Source of the DNA: a virus
Direction: 5' to 3' (one strand)
DNA: 20,065 nucleotides
IMG/VR virus record: IMGVR_UViG_3300001750_000036
Location: 1 to 20,065 of that record
Shown here: one piece after another, positions 1,667 through 6,862 of the stretch
How the letters are laid out: every line of letters starts with the position of its first letter
Position numbering within the stretch: position 1 is the first letter of the stretch
Made by a program: the position numbers and the translations under genes
The notes under the pieces: model-generated
What the model saw: only the letters and a program-made list of their open reading frames with translations
What the model was told of the DNA's origin: nothing
Databases searched by the model: none

Positions 1667-3562
1667 ATGATTATTTTACCTATGTTGATGGCTTTAGTTT
1701 TTTTTGCAGGGTTTTTACCTTTGTTGATGATAGTATTTGCTCTTCTTTTTCTCATTGTGGGTATTCCTATTCTTATTATTTTAATTATATTATTTTTTAT
1801 CTTTATATTTATTGTTATTATTTTTATCATTTTAGCTATTTTATTTTTTATCTTTGTAGTTGTCCCTGTTAGTATTATTATTATTATTTTAGCTATGTTA
1901 TTTTTTGTTTTTATAGTCATTCCTGTTAGTATTATTATTATTATTTTAGCTATATTATTTTTTGGATTTATTATTTTTATTGTATTGCCTATCGTCATTA
2001 TTATAATAATAAGTATTATAGCTTTTGTTATAATTTTTATCTTGTTTAATTTATTTATCATTCTGCCTATGGTGGCTTTTATAGTTGTATCAATAATTAT
2101 CATTAGCATTATTTTACTGGTTTTATTCTTTGGATTTAATTTGTTTATTATATTACCTATAATACTTTTTATAATAATATTGATATTCATTATTGGCATT
2201 ATATTGTTAGTGATATTCTTTGGCTTTATTATTTTTATTGTATTGCCTTTAATTATAGGATTTGGTGGAGTTAGTCTTTTTATTATAATTATAATAGTTT
2301 TTGTTTTATTACTTAGTTTTTTGATTATAATTCTTATTGCTCAAAGTATGTTTATTATTATTATTTTGGTTATATTAGTAATAATCTTTTTAATTATTTT
2401 TATACTTATTTTTATATTATTTATTGACGCTATGTTGGGACATATTCTCGGACCGATGTTTACAACTATTTTCGCAAGTTTAGCAGATATGTTTAATAGA
2501 GTTATAAGTTTTATAACTAATGTTTTATGGAAACTTATAGATGATATAGTAGATAGAATAAAATTATTTTTAGGATATGAAATTGGGGACATCTCGTTGA
2601 GTATAGTTGACTCCATAAGAGATATAATATTTAATATGTTTAATCAAAGTGAAGTTCCTGTTGATGATTTAATAAGAAATACTATAGATTATTTTTATAA
2701 TTTAATAACAAATATTATAACAACTGTTAGAGAACGGATAAGAAATTATATGCCAATTATCCCATTGTTAGGCGAGCAAGGGACAGAATTGATAAGAACA
2801 ATTCTTGATAACAGAATAGATTCAATATTTATAGACCTAACTAATCAAATAAAAAGAGTAATATTAGGAACAACTTATTTTAGCGACCCGGATGAGATTA
2901 ATACCGGTAAAAATATAATTGACCTCATAGGTGAAATGATATTTAGAAGAAGTTCAACAGATGTAAGATTAAGTGAAACACTAGAAAACTTTATATTAGA
3001 TTTATTAAATCGGAATTTTCTATTTGATAGTATGCTTACTAATATAGGTAAATTTGGTGGTAGATTTGATTTAATGAGTGTTGTATTTGATTTTCTAGTA
3101 AAAATAATTAACAGGCTTACGGGTAAAAATGATGATGATGATACAGATGACCCACCCCCAACAGGCGGAACAGGAGAACAAAAACCAACAGAAGAAGAAA
3201 CAGATAATAGTAAAGTATCCAATTTTAAAAGTAGATTAAGTTTATTATTTGCTCCATTAAGTAGCGTTCCTTTTAATACAATTATTAGTAATTTTATAGA
3301 ATTGATAAAAGACGCTTTTAATAAATTAAGAAGTTTTTCACCTGCTGAATGGTTAGACGATTCATTCCCATATTTTAAAGATGTATTTGATGATTTTATA
3401 CTTGTTATAAAAGATTATTTTATACATATAATAAATTTTAATTTAGTTGATTGGTTGGGTGAATATGTTCCATATTTTCAAGATGTGATAGACGCTTTCC
3501 TTGTCTTAATAAAAGATTTATTTGAAATAGTGTTACCTTTTAATTTAGGAAAAAATAGATAA
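1667..3562 (+). CDS. Large membrane protein: hydrophobic repeat half plus amphipathic helical half
   Basis: No family recognised. The start is supported by ATG at 1667 with AAGGA at 1655-1659. Residues 1 to about 250 contain no charged residue and repeat the same FNLFIILP-type 30-residue unit as the upstream gene, so they should form many membrane passes. From about residue 254 (IDAMLGHILGPMF) the protein becomes an amphipathic helical domain with ordinary composition. A low-complexity acidic Pro/Thr linker follows (about 486-520, beginning KNDDDDTDDPPPTGG). The last about 100 residues hold a 34-residue repeat with a PYFxDV core. The product is probably an integral membrane protein with a large soluble domain on one side, expressed late from the box at 1470 and followed 27 bases later by a coiled-coil gene. 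Its role could be in lysis, envelope remodelling or superinfection control; the sequence does not decide. Confidence 0.7.
   Translation: MIILPMLMALVFFAGFLPLLMIVFALLFLIVGIPILIILIILFFIFIFIVIIFIILAILFFIFVVVPVSIIIIILAMLFFVFIVIPVSIIIIILAILFFGFIIFIVLPIVIIIIISIIAFVIIFILFNLFIILPMVAFIVVSIIIISIILLVLFFGFNLFIILPIILFIIILIFIIGIILLVIFFGFIIFIVLPLIIGFGGVSLFIIIIIVFVLLLSFLIIILIAQSMFIIIILVILVIIFLIIFILIFILFIDAMLGHILGPMFTTIFASLADMFNRVISFITNVLWKLIDDIVDRIKLFLGYEIGDISLSIVDSIRDIIFNMFNQSEVPVDDLIRNTIDYFYNLITNIITTVRERIRNYMPIIPLLGEQGTELIRTILDNRIDSIFIDLTNQIKRVILGTTYFSDPDEINTGKNIIDLIGEMIFRRSSTDVRLSETLENFILDLLNRNFLFDSMLTNIGKFGGRFDLMSVVFDFLVKIINRLTGKNDDDDTDDPPPTGGTGEQKPTEEETDNSKVSNFKSRLSLLFAPLSSVPFNTIISNFIELIKDAFNKLRSFSPAEWLDDSFPYFKDVFDDFILVIKDYFIHIINFNLVDWLGEYVPYFQDVIDAFLVLIKDLFEIVLPFNLGKNR
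1864..1980 (+). repeat. 57-bp tandem duplication (19 residues)
   Basis: The unit coding VPVSIIIIILAMLFFVFIV occurs twice in direct tandem. CCTGTTAGT appears at 1865 and 1922, 57 bp apart, and is followed both times by an ATT run and TTAGCTAT. The copies differ by few bases, which suggests recent duplication within the hydrophobic half of the gene. Confidence 0.8.
2063..2332 (+). repeat. Three 90-bp units matching the repeat of the upstream gene
   Basis: Leu-Pro codon pairs lie at 2063, 2153 and 2243, exactly 90 bp apart, each in the FNLFIILP or FIIFIVLP context with FFGF between units. The unit length and motif equal those in the gene at 1-1464, so the two genes share one repeat family. An earlier degenerate copy has its Leu-Pro at 1985. 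Confidence 0.8.
3256..3547 (+). repeat. About 102-bp degenerate repeat (34 residues), nearly three copies
   Basis: In the C-terminal end of the large membrane protein, the segment EWLDDSFPYFKDVFDDF is followed 34 residues later by DWLGEYVPYFQDVIDAF. A weaker first copy (VPFNTIISNFIELIKDAF) precedes them. Each copy ends in an IKD motif (ELIKD, LVIKD, VLIKD). The pattern suggests a repeated amphipathic helical hairpin. Confidence 0.7.
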
Positions 3563-3589: not shown

Positions 3590-4219
3590 ATGGTAGCAAG
3601 TAACGATAATTTAGAAAAGTTGTCAACACAATCTTTACTTAAAAGATTAAAAGAAAGAGAAACTGTACTTGAAAAATTAAAAAATAGGGAAACGGTATTT
3701 GATAAATTAAGAGAAAGAGAAACTGTATTTGATAAGTTAAGAGAGAGAGATTCTTTAATTAAACGGTTAAGAAAAAAAAGATGGGCGTTAATTAAAAAAA
3801 TAAGAAATAGAGATTCTTTAATTAAGCGATTAAGAAAAAGAAGAAGAACACTACTTAATAATACAAAAGATAGAATAGTTGGTAAAGTAACAGATAGAAT
3901 ACCTTTATTTGATGAAATAATAAATATTATTGATTTAATAAAAGATGTGCGTTCTTTATTTGATTTTGATAAAAAACCTGTAAAACAATCTCATTCGGAT
4001 ATTATAAAAGATGATGTTGAAAAATTAAAAACTTCTGTAAGTAGATTATTTGAAAAACTTACCACCGGAACAACGGAAGATGAAACAGAAGATGAAGAAT
4101 TAGATTTATTGGAAGAAATAAATTTAATAGAAGAAGAAGAATTACCCGAAGAAGAGTTAGCTTTTGAAGAAAAATTTAAAAGGCAACGAGAAAAAGAAAA
4201 GGAATATTTAAAGGGGTAA
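3590..4219 (+). CDS. Charged coiled-coil protein with 10/11-residue repeats
   Basis: No family recognised. ATG at 3590 is preceded by GAGGAT (3580-3585). Residues 17-88 are seven tandem units of ten or eleven residues: four of type FDKLRERETV, then 11, 10 and 11-residue units such as IKRLRKKRWAL. Charge changes along the protein, with mixed Glu/Arg at the start, Lys/Arg in the middle, and a strongly acidic C-terminal third (about residues 160-195) before a final basic stretch. There is no signal peptide and no membrane segment. Repeats of 10 to 11 residues are typical of right-handed or flattened coiled coils rather than heptad coils. The gene stops one base before the next ATG, so translation is probably coupled. 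A structural rod or a cytoplasmic partner of the preceding membrane protein is a reasonable guess. Confidence 0.7.
   Translation: MVASNDNLEKLSTQSLLKRLKERETVLEKLKNRETVFDKLRERETVFDKLRERDSLIKRLRKKRWALIKKIRNRDSLIKRLRKRRRTLLNNTKDRIVGKVTDRIPLFDEIINIIDLIKDVRSLFDFDKKPVKQSHSDIIKDDVEKLKTSVSRLFEKLTTGTTEDETEDEELDLLEEINLIEEEELPEEELAFEEKFKRQREKEKEYLKG
3638..3853 (+). repeat. 30/33-bp tandem repeats coding a coiled coil
   Basis: Seven units code residues 17-26, 27-36, 37-46, 47-56, 57-67, 68-77 and 78-88 of the coiled-coil protein. Third and fourth units are almost identical in DNA (ACTGTATTTGATAA type), and GATTCTTTAATTAA occurs at the junctions before the fifth and seventh units. Growth by unequal recombination or polymerase slippage is likely. 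Confidence 0.85.
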
Positions 4220-4220
4220 G

Positions 4221-4448
4221 ATGGGGTTTTTAACGATATTTAAAACTTTACTTCCTGTTGTTGGAGAGATTTTAGTCAATGTATCCAAAAATAAAACGAA
4301 AGAATCGGAATATTTGACAGAAAATTTAAAAGATAAATTAGAAAACGTTAAACAAGTAGAAATAACTAATGAATCAGTAGAAAAAAAAATGAAATTAATG
4401 AATGACAGAGTTAAGGAATTAGAAAATAAATTAAAAAAATTTTTGTAA
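4221..4448 (+). CDS. Small amphipathic/coiled-coil protein, possible i-spanin
   Basis: A 75-residue protein, ATG at 4221, with AAGGGG (4211-4216) in the end of the previous gene as ribosome site and a single base between stop and start. Residues 3-21 (FLTIFKTLLPVVGEILVNV) form a moderately hydrophobic segment with one Lys and one Glu. Residues from about 30 onward are highly charged with a heptad-like pattern ending in VKELENKLKKFL. A short N-terminal anchor followed by a coiled coil, directly before a lipoprotein gene, is the plan of an i-spanin. The hydrophobic segment is weak for a membrane helix, however, so a peripheral or soluble protein is equally possible. No sequence family recognised. 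Confidence 0.6.
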   Translation: MGFLTIFKTLLPVVGEILVNVSKNKTKESEYLTENLKDKLENVKQVEITNESVEKKMKLMNDRVKELENKLKKFL

Positions 4449-4464
4449 AAAGGAGTACAACGAC

Positions 4465-4731
4465 ATTAACAAAATAATCTTAACAACAACTTTTATTATT
4501 TTATTTACATCTTGTGCGTTCTTTACTAAAAATAAAATAGAAGAACTGCCAACTATTGTTTATAAACAAATTTATGTTCAAACTCCTTTGCCTGAGCTTC
4601 CTGTTCCACAAATACCAAAAATTCAGACAAAAGAACTTCTATTAAAAGAATTACAAAAAGCAATTTTTATATTGTCTGAATATGAAAAGTATAGAATTGA
4701 TATGGACAATTCTTCTAACCCTATAAAATAA
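4465..4731 (+). CDS. Small lipoprotein, o-spanin-like, apparent ATT start
   Basis: An 88-codon reading frame. The first possible codon behind a strong ribosome site (AAAAGGAG, 4448-4455) is ATT at 4465; upstream in frame up to the stop at 4432 there is no ATG, GTG or TTG. The translation begins (M/I)NKIILTTTFIILFTSC, a standard lipoprotein signal peptide: one Lys, a hydrophobic core and a lipobox-type LFTSC with Cys at residue 17. The mature part is short, with a Pro-rich stretch (TPLPELPVPQIP) and a C-terminal helix. This is the plan of Rz1-like outer-membrane spanins, which fuse inner and outer membranes at lysis. Ordinary gene calling would miss it because of the start codon. Either ATT is used, or ATT is a sequencing error or mutation for ATG. 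Function is inferred from architecture only. Confidence 0.6.
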   Translation: MNKIILTTTFIILFTSCAFFTKNKIEELPTIVYKQIYVQTPLPELPVPQIPKIQTKELLLKELQKAIFILSEYEKYRIDMDNSSNPIK

Positions 4732-4768
4732 AAAATTTATTTTTTCCAAAAAAAAATCCTACTTTTAT

Positions 4769-4776
4769 TATAAATA
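4769..4776 (+). promoter_or_regulatory. T4-type late promoter box TATAAATA
   Basis: TATAAATA in the context TTATTATAAATAAAG, just upstream of the probable gp33 gene. With T4 geometry the transcript would begin about 4782, only about four bases before ATG 4786. The message for gp33 from this promoter would then be nearly leaderless, or the box mainly serves gp32 downstream. Confidence 0.7.
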
Positions 4777-4785
4777 AAGTTGAAT

Positions 4786-4992
4786 ATGTTATCCGTTGAA
4801 TTGTTCCATCAAACAGTAAATGAAGAAATTATCAAACATCAGAAAGTAAATAATTCTGATTTAATGGAAGCAATTATTTTAGTTATGGAAAAATTCGATG
4901 TTGATTTTTCTGTAATAAGTAGTATATTAAATGAAGATATTAAAGCTCAGTTTTTGACTGAGTGTAGAAATAAAAGATTATTAAAAAAATAA
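4786..4992 (+). CDS. 33: Probable late-transcription co-activator gp33
   Basis: A 68-residue protein from ATG 4786; a TTG at 4780 in frame would add two residues. Neither start has a clear ribosome site. In T4, gp33 bridges RNA polymerase, the gp55 sigma factor and the gp45 sliding clamp at TATAAATA promoters. The central part (LMEAIILVMEKFDVDFSVISSIL, split here as LMEAIILVMEKF and DVDFSVISSIL) followed by NEDIKAQFLTECRNKRLLKK resembles the short gp33 proteins of marine T4-like phages as I remember them. Position just before gene 32 matches T4, where 33 lies close upstream of 32. The late boxes in this window require such a factor. The protein is much shorter than T4 gp33, and the match is from memory of a short weakly conserved family, so the call is moderate. 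Confidence 0.6.
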   Translation: MLSVELFHQTVNEEIIKHQKVNNSDLMEAIILVMEKFDVDFSVISSILNEDIKAQFLTECRNKRLLKK

Positions 4993-5004: not shown

Positions 5005-5898
5005 ATGAATAGTCTAGCAGAATTAAAAAAGAAAAGAGGTGGTTTAAAAAAATTGAAAGAAAATATGAAGGTGATGAAAGAAGGTACATCATATCCAGAA
5101 GATATTTTAAGTTCAAAGATTTTTTGGAGTTTGAAAAGGGATAAGCAAGATAACGGTTACGCTATAATCCGGTTTTTACCGTCAATCAAAGAAGACGCTT
5201 TACCATTTATAACTTTTTACCGTCATATTTGTAAAAAAAATAATAAATGGTTTATTGAAAATTGTCCAACAACAATAAAACGAGAATGTCCGGTATGTGA
5301 ATATAATAGAATGTTGTGGGACACTAATAAAAAAGATGAAGCTAGAAATAATAGTAGAAAGAAAATTTATATTTCAAATATACTGGTTGTCAACGACCCA
5401 ACAAACCCTGAAAATAATGGGAAAATTTTTATGTATAAGTTTGGTGAAAGAATAATGAATATTATACAAGAAAAATTAGACCCAAAATTCCCTGATGAAG
5501 AACCTGTAAATGTTTTTGATTTTTGGGAAGGTGCTGATTTTAGATTAAAATGTAAAAAACTTGATGGATTTATCAATTATAATTCTTCAACGTTTGATAG
5601 TTCAACTTCATTAGAAGAAGAAAATATAAAAAGAATTTGGAAAGAATTAAATGAATGTGAAATCAAAATTAAAGATTTATTGTTAGAAAAACATTTCTCG
5701 ACTTATGAGAATATTAAAAAGAAATTTGATAGGTTTAATAATAAACCAACTGTAAAAGAAAATGTAGGTCAAAAGGATAGTTTAAATGTTAGTAATCCTA
5801 CTCTTATAAAGACTCCAGAACCAATTCCAAAAACAATAAAAGAATCAAGTAATAAAGATTTAGAATATTTTAGTAAATTAGCAGATGAGGAGTTATAA
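5005..5898 (+). CDS. 32: Single-stranded DNA-binding protein gp32
   Basis: The product coats single-stranded DNA in replication, recombination and repair. At 297 residues it is close to the 301 of T4 gp32. The zinc site is intact: His74, Cys87, Cys95 and Cys98, with spacings 12, 7 and 2 against 12, 9 and 2 in T4. The N-terminal basic segment (ELKKKRGGLKKLKENMK) fits the region used for cooperative binding. The core contains FWSLKRD and the IRFLPS strand, and the C-terminus is acidic (YFSKLADEEL), as expected for the tail that recruits partner proteins. ATG 5005 has a near-perfect ribosome site (AAGGAGGT, 4991-4998), in keeping with high expression. The last codons contain GAGGAG, which serves as ribosome site for the next gene two bases downstream of the stop. 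Confidence 0.95.
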   Translation: MNSLAELKKKRGGLKKLKENMKVMKEGTSYPEDILSSKIFWSLKRDKQDNGYAIIRFLPSIKEDALPFITFYRHICKKNNKWFIENCPTTIKRECPVCEYNRMLWDTNKKDEARNNSRKKIYISNILVVNDPTNPENNGKIFMYKFGERIMNIIQEKLDPKFPDEEPVNVFDFWEGADFRLKCKKLDGFINYNSSTFDSSTSLEEENIKRIWKELNECEIKIKDLLLEKHFSTYENIKKKFDRFNNKPTVKENVGQKDSLNVSNPTLIKTPEPIPKTIKESSNKDLEYFSKLADEEL

Positions 5899-5900
5899 AA

Positions 5901-6659
5901 ATGAGTGATATACCTTCAATGAAAGTAAAATTACCAAAGATTGATGTTGTAAATTATACTTTAGAGATACCGTCAACTAAAAAAGAATTACTTTATAGAC
6001 CTTTTTTAGTTAAAGAAGAAAAGATATTATTACAAGCTACACAACAAAATAATGAAAAGGATACTATTCGAGCAATAACACAAATAATTAATAATTGTAT
6101 TTTAACCGAAGATTTTAATGTTGATGAATTAACTCTTTTTGATTTAGAATATATTTTTTTACAATTAAGAGCTAAATCTATTGGTGAAGTAATAGAGTTG
6201 ACATTAAGTCATCCTAATAATAAAAATAAAAGTGGTGAAGAATGTACTGGAGTTTTCCCTTATGAATTAAATGTAGATGATATAGAAGTTTGTTTTAATG
6301 AAAAAAACAATAATGTCATTAAATTGTCTGATACTATGGGAGTAAAATTAAAATATCCAAGTTATAAATTATTACCTAAATTAACTAAAATTAAGGAGGA
6401 TAATTTTGACTCCATTTTAGATGTAATTTTAAATTGTGTAGATTATATCTATGATGGTGATAATGTTTATTATGCCAAAGATATATCAAAATCAGAGTTG
6501 AGTGAATTTTTTATGAATTTTAATACAAAACAGTTTCAAGAAGTACAAACTTTTTTTGAAACATTACCAATTATTAGAAAAGAAATAATTTATACTTGTC
6601 CGAAATGTGGTGAGGAAGAAAAAATTGTACTGGAGGGTTTGCAAAATTTTTTCACCTAA
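5901..6659 (+). CDS. 26: Baseplate hub protein, gp26-like (T4 baseplate family)
   Basis: A 252-residue protein starting two bases after gp32, with GAGGAG (5886-5891) inside the end of gene 32. The N-terminal pattern (MKVKLPKIDVVNYTLEIPST, then LLYRPFLVKEEKILLQA) and FNVDELTLFDLEYIFLQLRAKS are those of T4 gp26-like baseplate hub proteins found in T4-like and marine myophages. A CPKCG motif near the C-terminus (about residues 234-238) is followed by the end LEGLQNFFT. These proteins act in hub assembly around the tape measure. The reading frame ends on a slippery run, and a second gp51-like segment continues in the -1 frame. The gene may thus give both this product and a fusion of about 320 residues ending at 6862. 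Whether the product is a structural hub subunit or a chaperone is uncertain. Confidence 0.8.
   Translation: MSDIPSMKVKLPKIDVVNYTLEIPSTKKELLYRPFLVKEEKILLQATQQNNEKDTIRAITQIINNCILTEDFNVDELTLFDLEYIFLQLRAKSIGEVIELTLSHPNNKNKSGEECTGVFPYELNVDDIEVCFNEKNNNVIKLSDTMGVKLKYPSYKLLPKLTKIKEDNFDSILDVILNCVDYIYDGDNVYYAKDISKSELSEFFMNFNTKQFQEVQTFFETLPIIRKEIIYTCPKCGEEEKIVLEGLQNFFT
6632..6653 (+). promoter_or_regulatory. Putative programmed -1 frameshift site
   Basis: In the gp26 frame the sequence at 6644-6653 reads A AAT TTT TTC. It contains two overlapping heptamers of the X XXY YYZ form: A AAT TTT (6644-6650) and T TTT TTC (6647-6653). Six bases upstream lies GGAGGG (6632-6637), an SD-like stimulator as known for E. 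coli dnaX. The -1 frame is open from here through the gp51-like segment to 6862, while the zero frame ends at 6659. I see no strong downstream hairpin. Confidence 0.6.
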
Positions 6660-6676
6660 GCGTTGGCTATAACAGT

Positions 6677-6862
6677 TTGGTACTTTATTATAGAATCAAT
6701 TTTGCTTTAATGACACACTATAAGTATAGTTTAAATGAATTAGATAATATGATACCTTATGAGCGAGAAATTTATATAGCTTTACTTCAACAATGGATAA
6801 AAGAGGAGAATGAAAAGACAGAAAAGTTGAATAGAGAAAGAAAAGTTAAAAATAGAAAGTAA
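6677..6862 (+). CDS. 51: gp51-like hub assembly segment, probably the -1 frame extension of gp26
   Basis: The visible product (61 residues from TTG 6677) contains YYRINFALMTHYKYSLNELDNMIP followed by YEREIY, quoted here as YYRINFALMTHYKYS and LNELDNMIPYEREIY. This matches what I remember of the C-terminal or gp51-type segment of T4-like hub assembly proteins. The C-terminus is a charged helix. TTG 6677 has no ribosome site. The frame is open upstream across the end of gp26 (FFHLSVGYNSLVLYY), so translation by -1 slippage at 6644-6653 seems better than independent initiation. The fusion would append about 70 residues. The alternatives are a separate weakly started gene, or initiation at ATG 6710, which would cut off conserved residues. 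The stop at 6860-6862 runs straight into the first terminator hairpin. Confidence 0.65.
   Translation: MVLYYRINFALMTHYKYSLNELDNMIPYEREIYIALLQQWIKEENEKTEKLNRERKVKNRK

Follow-up and report, generated by a model that had tools for sequence, protein, structure and literature searches.

An ATT start codon is described for infC, the IF3 gene of E. coli (PMC5472188). In S. aureus, cvfC1 is reported to begin with AUU behind a strong Shine-Dalgarno (SD) sequence; the arrangement is conserved among staphylococci and comes with a lower protein yield (PMC13009471). A switch from AUG to AUU is given for just one of 61,358 ancestral AUG starts in bacteria (PMC5622118). In a reconstituted system, AUU and the anticodon CAU are reported to form a weak pair that is disfavoured by higher IF3 (PMC10158994), and re-initiation in E. 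coli is described as less inhibited by excess IF3 where an SD sequence is present (PMC2268962). For phages, a full-text literature search covering few subscription journals returned no report of a gene with an AUU (ATT) start. Gene finders usually take only ATG, GTG and TTG as starts.

Here we describe a lipoprotein gene in a virus record of 20,065 bases and 26.8% GC, the whole of which we analysed and call the window. Like infC and cvfC1, this gene has AUU behind a clear SD sequence and no in-frame canonical start. Unlike them, cases that are conserved or tested, it is a phage gene represented by a single sequence, for which a link to IF3 would be hypothetical, and its SD counts six bases whereas the SD at S. 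aureus non-canonical starts is of an extended type. The features of the locus are as follows.

4221–4448, plus strand: 75-aa open reading frame (ORF), predicted to be helical, with an N-terminal hydrophobic stretch followed by a coiled-coil-like part; putative i-spanin partner
4450–4455, plus strand: SD core AAGGAG; anti-SD duplex of −8.2 kcal/mol, third of 14 gene starts
4465–4467, plus strand: ATT, proposed start codon, 9 bases 3' of the SD
4465–4515, plus strand: predicted lipoprotein signal peptide, INKIILTTTFIILFTS and then Cys, with lipobox LFTSC, by a PROSITE-type lipoprotein rule
4465–4731, plus strand: lipoprotein gene of 88 codons, mature part 72 aa
4786–4992, plus strand: gp33-like late-transcription coactivator (PF16805, E 6.9e-07, 29.5 bits against a cut-off of 25)
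5005–5898, plus strand: gp32 ssDNA-binding protein, about 36–39% identical to cyanophage and pelagiphage gp32

Read directly from the sequence, the lipoprotein frame extends from ATT at 4465 to a stop at 4729–4731 and translates as INKIILTTTFIILFTSC-AFFTKN... Upstream it is closed by an in-frame TAA (4432–4434), and none of its codons from 4435 to the Cys codon (4513–4515) is ATG, GTG or TTG. The purine run AAAAAGGAG occupies 4447–4455; its core AAGGAG starts one base after the TAA (4446–4448) that ends the 75-aa ORF, and nine bases (4456–4464) separate this core from ATT. The signal peptide has Lys 3 in its n-region, a hydrophobic core and LFTSC with the Cys at residue 17. It thereby fits the PROSITE-type lipoprotein rule used here: positive n-region, hydrophobic core and lipobox with Cys at residue 15–35. 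A preliminary description of this DNA had claimed a good ribosome site followed by nine bases and ATT, the lack of a canonical start between the upstream stop and the signal peptide, and a signal peptide ending in LFTSC; all three held when the sequence was reread. Phe at position −3 of the lipobox deviates from the strict consensus [LVI][ASTVI][GAS]C, and o-spanins with deviations such as FVGC are on record (PMC6139136). The mature protein carries 7 prolines in its 72 residues, mostly in a flexible middle linker, after which comes a predicted C-terminal helix.

AT-rich DNA readily gives hydrophobic frames, and no homologue of the lipoprotein turned up in the collections searched, so that a chance open frame had to be weighed. 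It is contradicted by the codon usage of the frame, by its SD and lipobox, by the gap that it fills and by comparison with random DNA. The frame scores 0.281 bits per codon, against 0.173–0.430 for 13 other ORFs and −0.48 to +0.09 for the remaining five frames of this stretch. Of 20,000 shuffled versions of 4449–4779, 13 contained an open run of at least 98 codons. Only gp32 (−13.5 kcal/mol) and gp26 (−8.9 kcal/mol) have a stronger predicted SD duplex. Without the gene, a gap of 337 bases would lie between the 75-aa ORF and gp33; the gene leaves gaps of 16 and 54 bases on its two sides, and those elsewhere in the window range from −4 to 85. A strong SD, a near-cognate codon and a lipoprotein signal peptide with at least 35 further codons, in a frame lacking a canonical start, coincide a single time in the window. 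In a test designed after the feature had been seen, none of 400 random windows of the same length, generated by a second-order Markov model, had this combination. We conclude that 4465–4731 is very probably a real gene, and that a chance frame is highly improbable.

Within this frame, ATT at 4465–4467 is the sole codon one base away from ATG at a workable distance from the SD; the other such codons lie at a spacing of −6, or of 18 bases and beyond. It alone retains the n-region lysine at codon 3. As alternative starts, ATA at 4474 and ATC at 4477 were rejected, being 18 and 21 bases from the SD and losing the lysine. Because only this codon combines workable spacing with Lys 3, AUU is, as far as the given sequence can tell, the start of the lipoprotein gene if the gene is made. 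For comparison, gp32 and gp26 have ATG 8 bases after GGAG, the lipoprotein ATT stands 9 bases after its SD, and 12 other genes of the window start with ATG (11) or TTG (one). Predicted RNA folding is weak around the start (−1.6 kcal/mol for 4431–4500), and in a longer fold (4400–4530) the SD is paired, yet the energy is ordinary (z 0.34). A special RNA structure at the start was accordingly discarded (z 0.97 and 0.34).

Is this ATT really used? We put a natural, used AUU start at 4465 only just short of an even chance, and give a genuine start a small edge over an erroneous base or a private variant. It is quite possible that the virus itself has a canonical start and that an assembly or read error put the wrong base at 4467 of the contig. 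A single substitution turns ATT into ATG at exactly the right spacing, natural changes from AUG to AUU are exceedingly uncommon, and the window consists of one virus record derived from a metagenome. For its part, a wrong base in a lone metagenomic contig may be about as rare as that natural change. The remainder of the roughly 20 kb, in which all long ORFs are intact and no other gene looks broken, speaks only slightly against an error, because substitutions elsewhere would be invisible. The base could also be correct and mark a start-loss allele, a gene recently crippled in one genome and giving little or no protein. AUU is a poor start and a single genome has been seen, but the gene is otherwise intact with normal codon usage, so that any such loss would be very recent; we regard this as improbable. 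Finally, ribosomes translating the 75-aa ORF might reach the lipoprotein frame by a frameshift, with no initiation at all, and a run AAAAAAATTTTTG at 4433–4445 does lie ahead of the stop of that ORF. However, the lipoprotein frame is +1 to the 75-aa ORF whereas such a run would favour −1, and the signal peptide would be buried behind a leader of 75 aa, which makes frameshift entry scarcely credible.

To place the gene in a wider setting, 254 fetched loci and the window were surveyed for SD-preceded lipoproteins. Three had a canonical start and seven did not; among these seven, only that of the window looks genuine by eye and six look wrong-frame. This survey was a small one, and no frequency of ATT starts follows from it. 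Tblastn against the 254 loci (2.28 Mb) revealed no homologue of the lipoprotein, nor did one appear among the matches listed for viral contigs, phage genomes and genome contigs, where single-protein searches used six exact 8-residue patterns and could miss relatives under roughly 70% identity by our estimate. The lack of homologues, and hence of a conserved ATT, weighs against a genuine AUU start. A plasmid search with 4300–4800 gave one Spiroplasma match, which was dismissed as chance-like.

The gene content marks the window as a fragment of what is, by its sequence relationships, a divergent marine T4-like phage. The hydrophobic repeat proteins come first, then a coiled-coil protein, the 75-aa ORF, the lipoprotein, gp33, gp32, gp26 (PF12322, E 2.9e-60) and a gp51-like ORF; these are followed by a tape measure protein with a tail lysozyme domain (PF18013), a VrlC-type baseplate protein and other tail genes. 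Of the relatives with names, the best belong to the marine Kyanoviridae: the Pelagibacter phages Mosig and HTVC008M, Prochlorococcus and Synechococcus phages, and the Methylophilales phage Melnitz. Phages of this type (Mosig, HTVC008M, P-SSM2, Melnitz) share gp32, gp26, gp51 and the VrlC-type protein with the window, but gp32 is only about 36–39% identical, the gene order differs and the lipoprotein is absent from all Kyanoviridae-type loci fetched. A search with the VrlC-type protein yielded 40 loci, with long matches at about 25–33% identity. No near relative of the phage was found via gp32, gp33 or the C-terminal part of the 1667–3562 protein, and no close relative in IMG/VR among the matches listed.

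Other parts of the window deserve a brief description. Each of the regions 1–1464 and 1667–3562 encodes a very long protein of extreme hydrophobicity, made up of imperfect repeats with units of 51–90 bases; part of each region is open on the complementary strand as well. Pfam and NCBIfam gave no family match for the 1667–3562 protein. The protein encoded next to it (3590–4219, 209 aa) contains a basic, coiled-coil-like stretch (RERETVFDKLRERDSL...) specified by repeats of 30 and 60 bases, and its tail is acidic. In gp32 of the window, the Cys-rich zinc motif is kept as ENCPTT....CPVC. Among the marine relatives that were fetched first, SLTT...DPVS is the most frequent form, and a motif scan showed CPVC in three of those loci (L035, L037 and L056).

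A separate observation concerns gp26 and gp51 (5901–6862 in the window). Homology of the gp51-like ORF (6677–6862) begins ahead of any start codon, within the last part of gp26. In all 64 distinct junctions, a count that leaves out two loci with non-adjacent matches, the gp51 frame is −1 to gp26. The heptamer T TTT TTN, read in the gp26 frame, lies 0–8 codons before the gp26 stop in 63 of the 64 (the exception is L242), its last base being C in 33, T in 23 and A in 7; in the window it is at 6647–6653. An SD-like tetramer stands within 18 bases upstream of the slippery site in 41 of 74 cases, against 126 of 1,535 control windows from the same genes, an excess that may partly reflect protein conservation. 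The pattern points to a programmed −1 frameshift of the kind that other tail assembly chaperones have, and this would produce a gp26–gp51 fusion ahead of the tape measure gene. In Pelagibacter phage Mosig (MT647606, locus L002, 7123–7257), the annotated gp51 start falls eight codons inside the conserved reading, and homology begins upstream of it, within the gp26 overlap. T4-like phages are reported to have such chaperone genes, some without frameshifting (PMC10885494, citing Vladimirov et al. 2022), and the marine clade may differ from those that do not use it. The literature searched, at the level of titles and abstracts, contained no naming of a gp26–gp51 frameshift.

What could the lipoprotein do? 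The preliminary description had spoken of a lysis protein. In favour of this, the general shape of the locus resembles a spanin pair; in its disfavour, no family match was obtained. As in the two-component spanins lambda Rz1 and T4 PseT.2, a small lipoprotein with a short mature part and a proline-rich linker adjoins a small helical ORF. Unlike in those systems, there is no sequence match, the genes are separate and 16 bases apart, and the membrane segment of the partner is uncertain. For the lipoprotein, Pfam, PHROGs, NCBIfam and PDB sequences gave no significant o-spanin family match (best PHROG E 0.1), and since no family model supports it, we did not file the protein as an o-spanin. Its seven prolines do not discriminate, because T4-family o-spanins are described as lacking such a proline-rich or structured periplasmic region (PMC6139136).

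The neighbouring 75-aa ORF reaches a best 19-residue hydropathy of 1.74, but a Lys and a Glu lie within the hydrophobic stretch. Its single-sequence structure model has three helices (mean pLDDT 72.7) and, like that of the lipoprotein, is too weak for fold comparison. There was no confident family match in Pfam, PHROGs or NCBIfam. Three sets of matches were rejected as homology: weak coiled-coil-type matches in five Erwinia phage records (best E 0.4), a PHROG match of the same weak type (E 0.0057) and a Med9 match below the Med9 cut-off (E 0.00012).

The chances seem evenly balanced that the protein is a real lipoprotein of another kind, whether surface, exclusion or other envelope lipoprotein, with whatever start codon. 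This reading draws on the missing family match, on the charges that interrupt the hydrophobic stretch of the 75-aa ORF, and on the fact that neither a holin nor an endolysin was recognised adjoining the gene. Yet lysis genes are reported not to be clustered in T4-like phages (PMC6139136), and size, lipobox, proline-rich linker and an adjoining helical ORF with a hydrophobic N-terminus all resemble two-component spanins. An o-spanin role paired with the 75-aa ORF is plausible on these grounds. Spanin genes are said to be frequently overlooked or mis-started in annotation (PMC6139136).

To explain the layout of the locus, we propose that a small outer-membrane-type lipoprotein is most likely translated from AUU at 4465. 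Ribosomes finishing the 75-aa ORF stop one base before the SD and would thus stand on it. A strong SD and terminating ribosomes together could then place the initiator tRNA on the weak AUU, by translational coupling and re-initiation. Given SD-aided re-initiation and the weak AUU/CAU pair, coupled, low-level synthesis of the lipoprotein would be the natural reading. A bolder version is that a phage envelope (lysis) gene keeps AUU deliberately, being throttled by host IF3 and tied to the upstream ORF by re-initiation, much as in infC. We consider this unlikely; if true, it would mean that a virus has borrowed infC-like control, and that there is a class of phage genes invisible to standard gene callers. 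The preliminary description had also suggested that a poor start codon would limit and delay synthesis of a lysis protein. The analysis lends no support to a delay of lysis by a weak start, and such a delay is not obviously needed, because lambda spanins accumulate harmlessly before lysis.

The lipoprotein frame is very probably a real gene, and ATT is its only plausible start in the given sequence. A phage gene starting at ATT would be missed or mis-started by the usual gene finders. If the base is an error, a single contig cannot support the claim of an ATT start. If the codon is real, the gene would add a phage example of a very rare start and offer a direct test of whether phages employ weak starts as dosage control.
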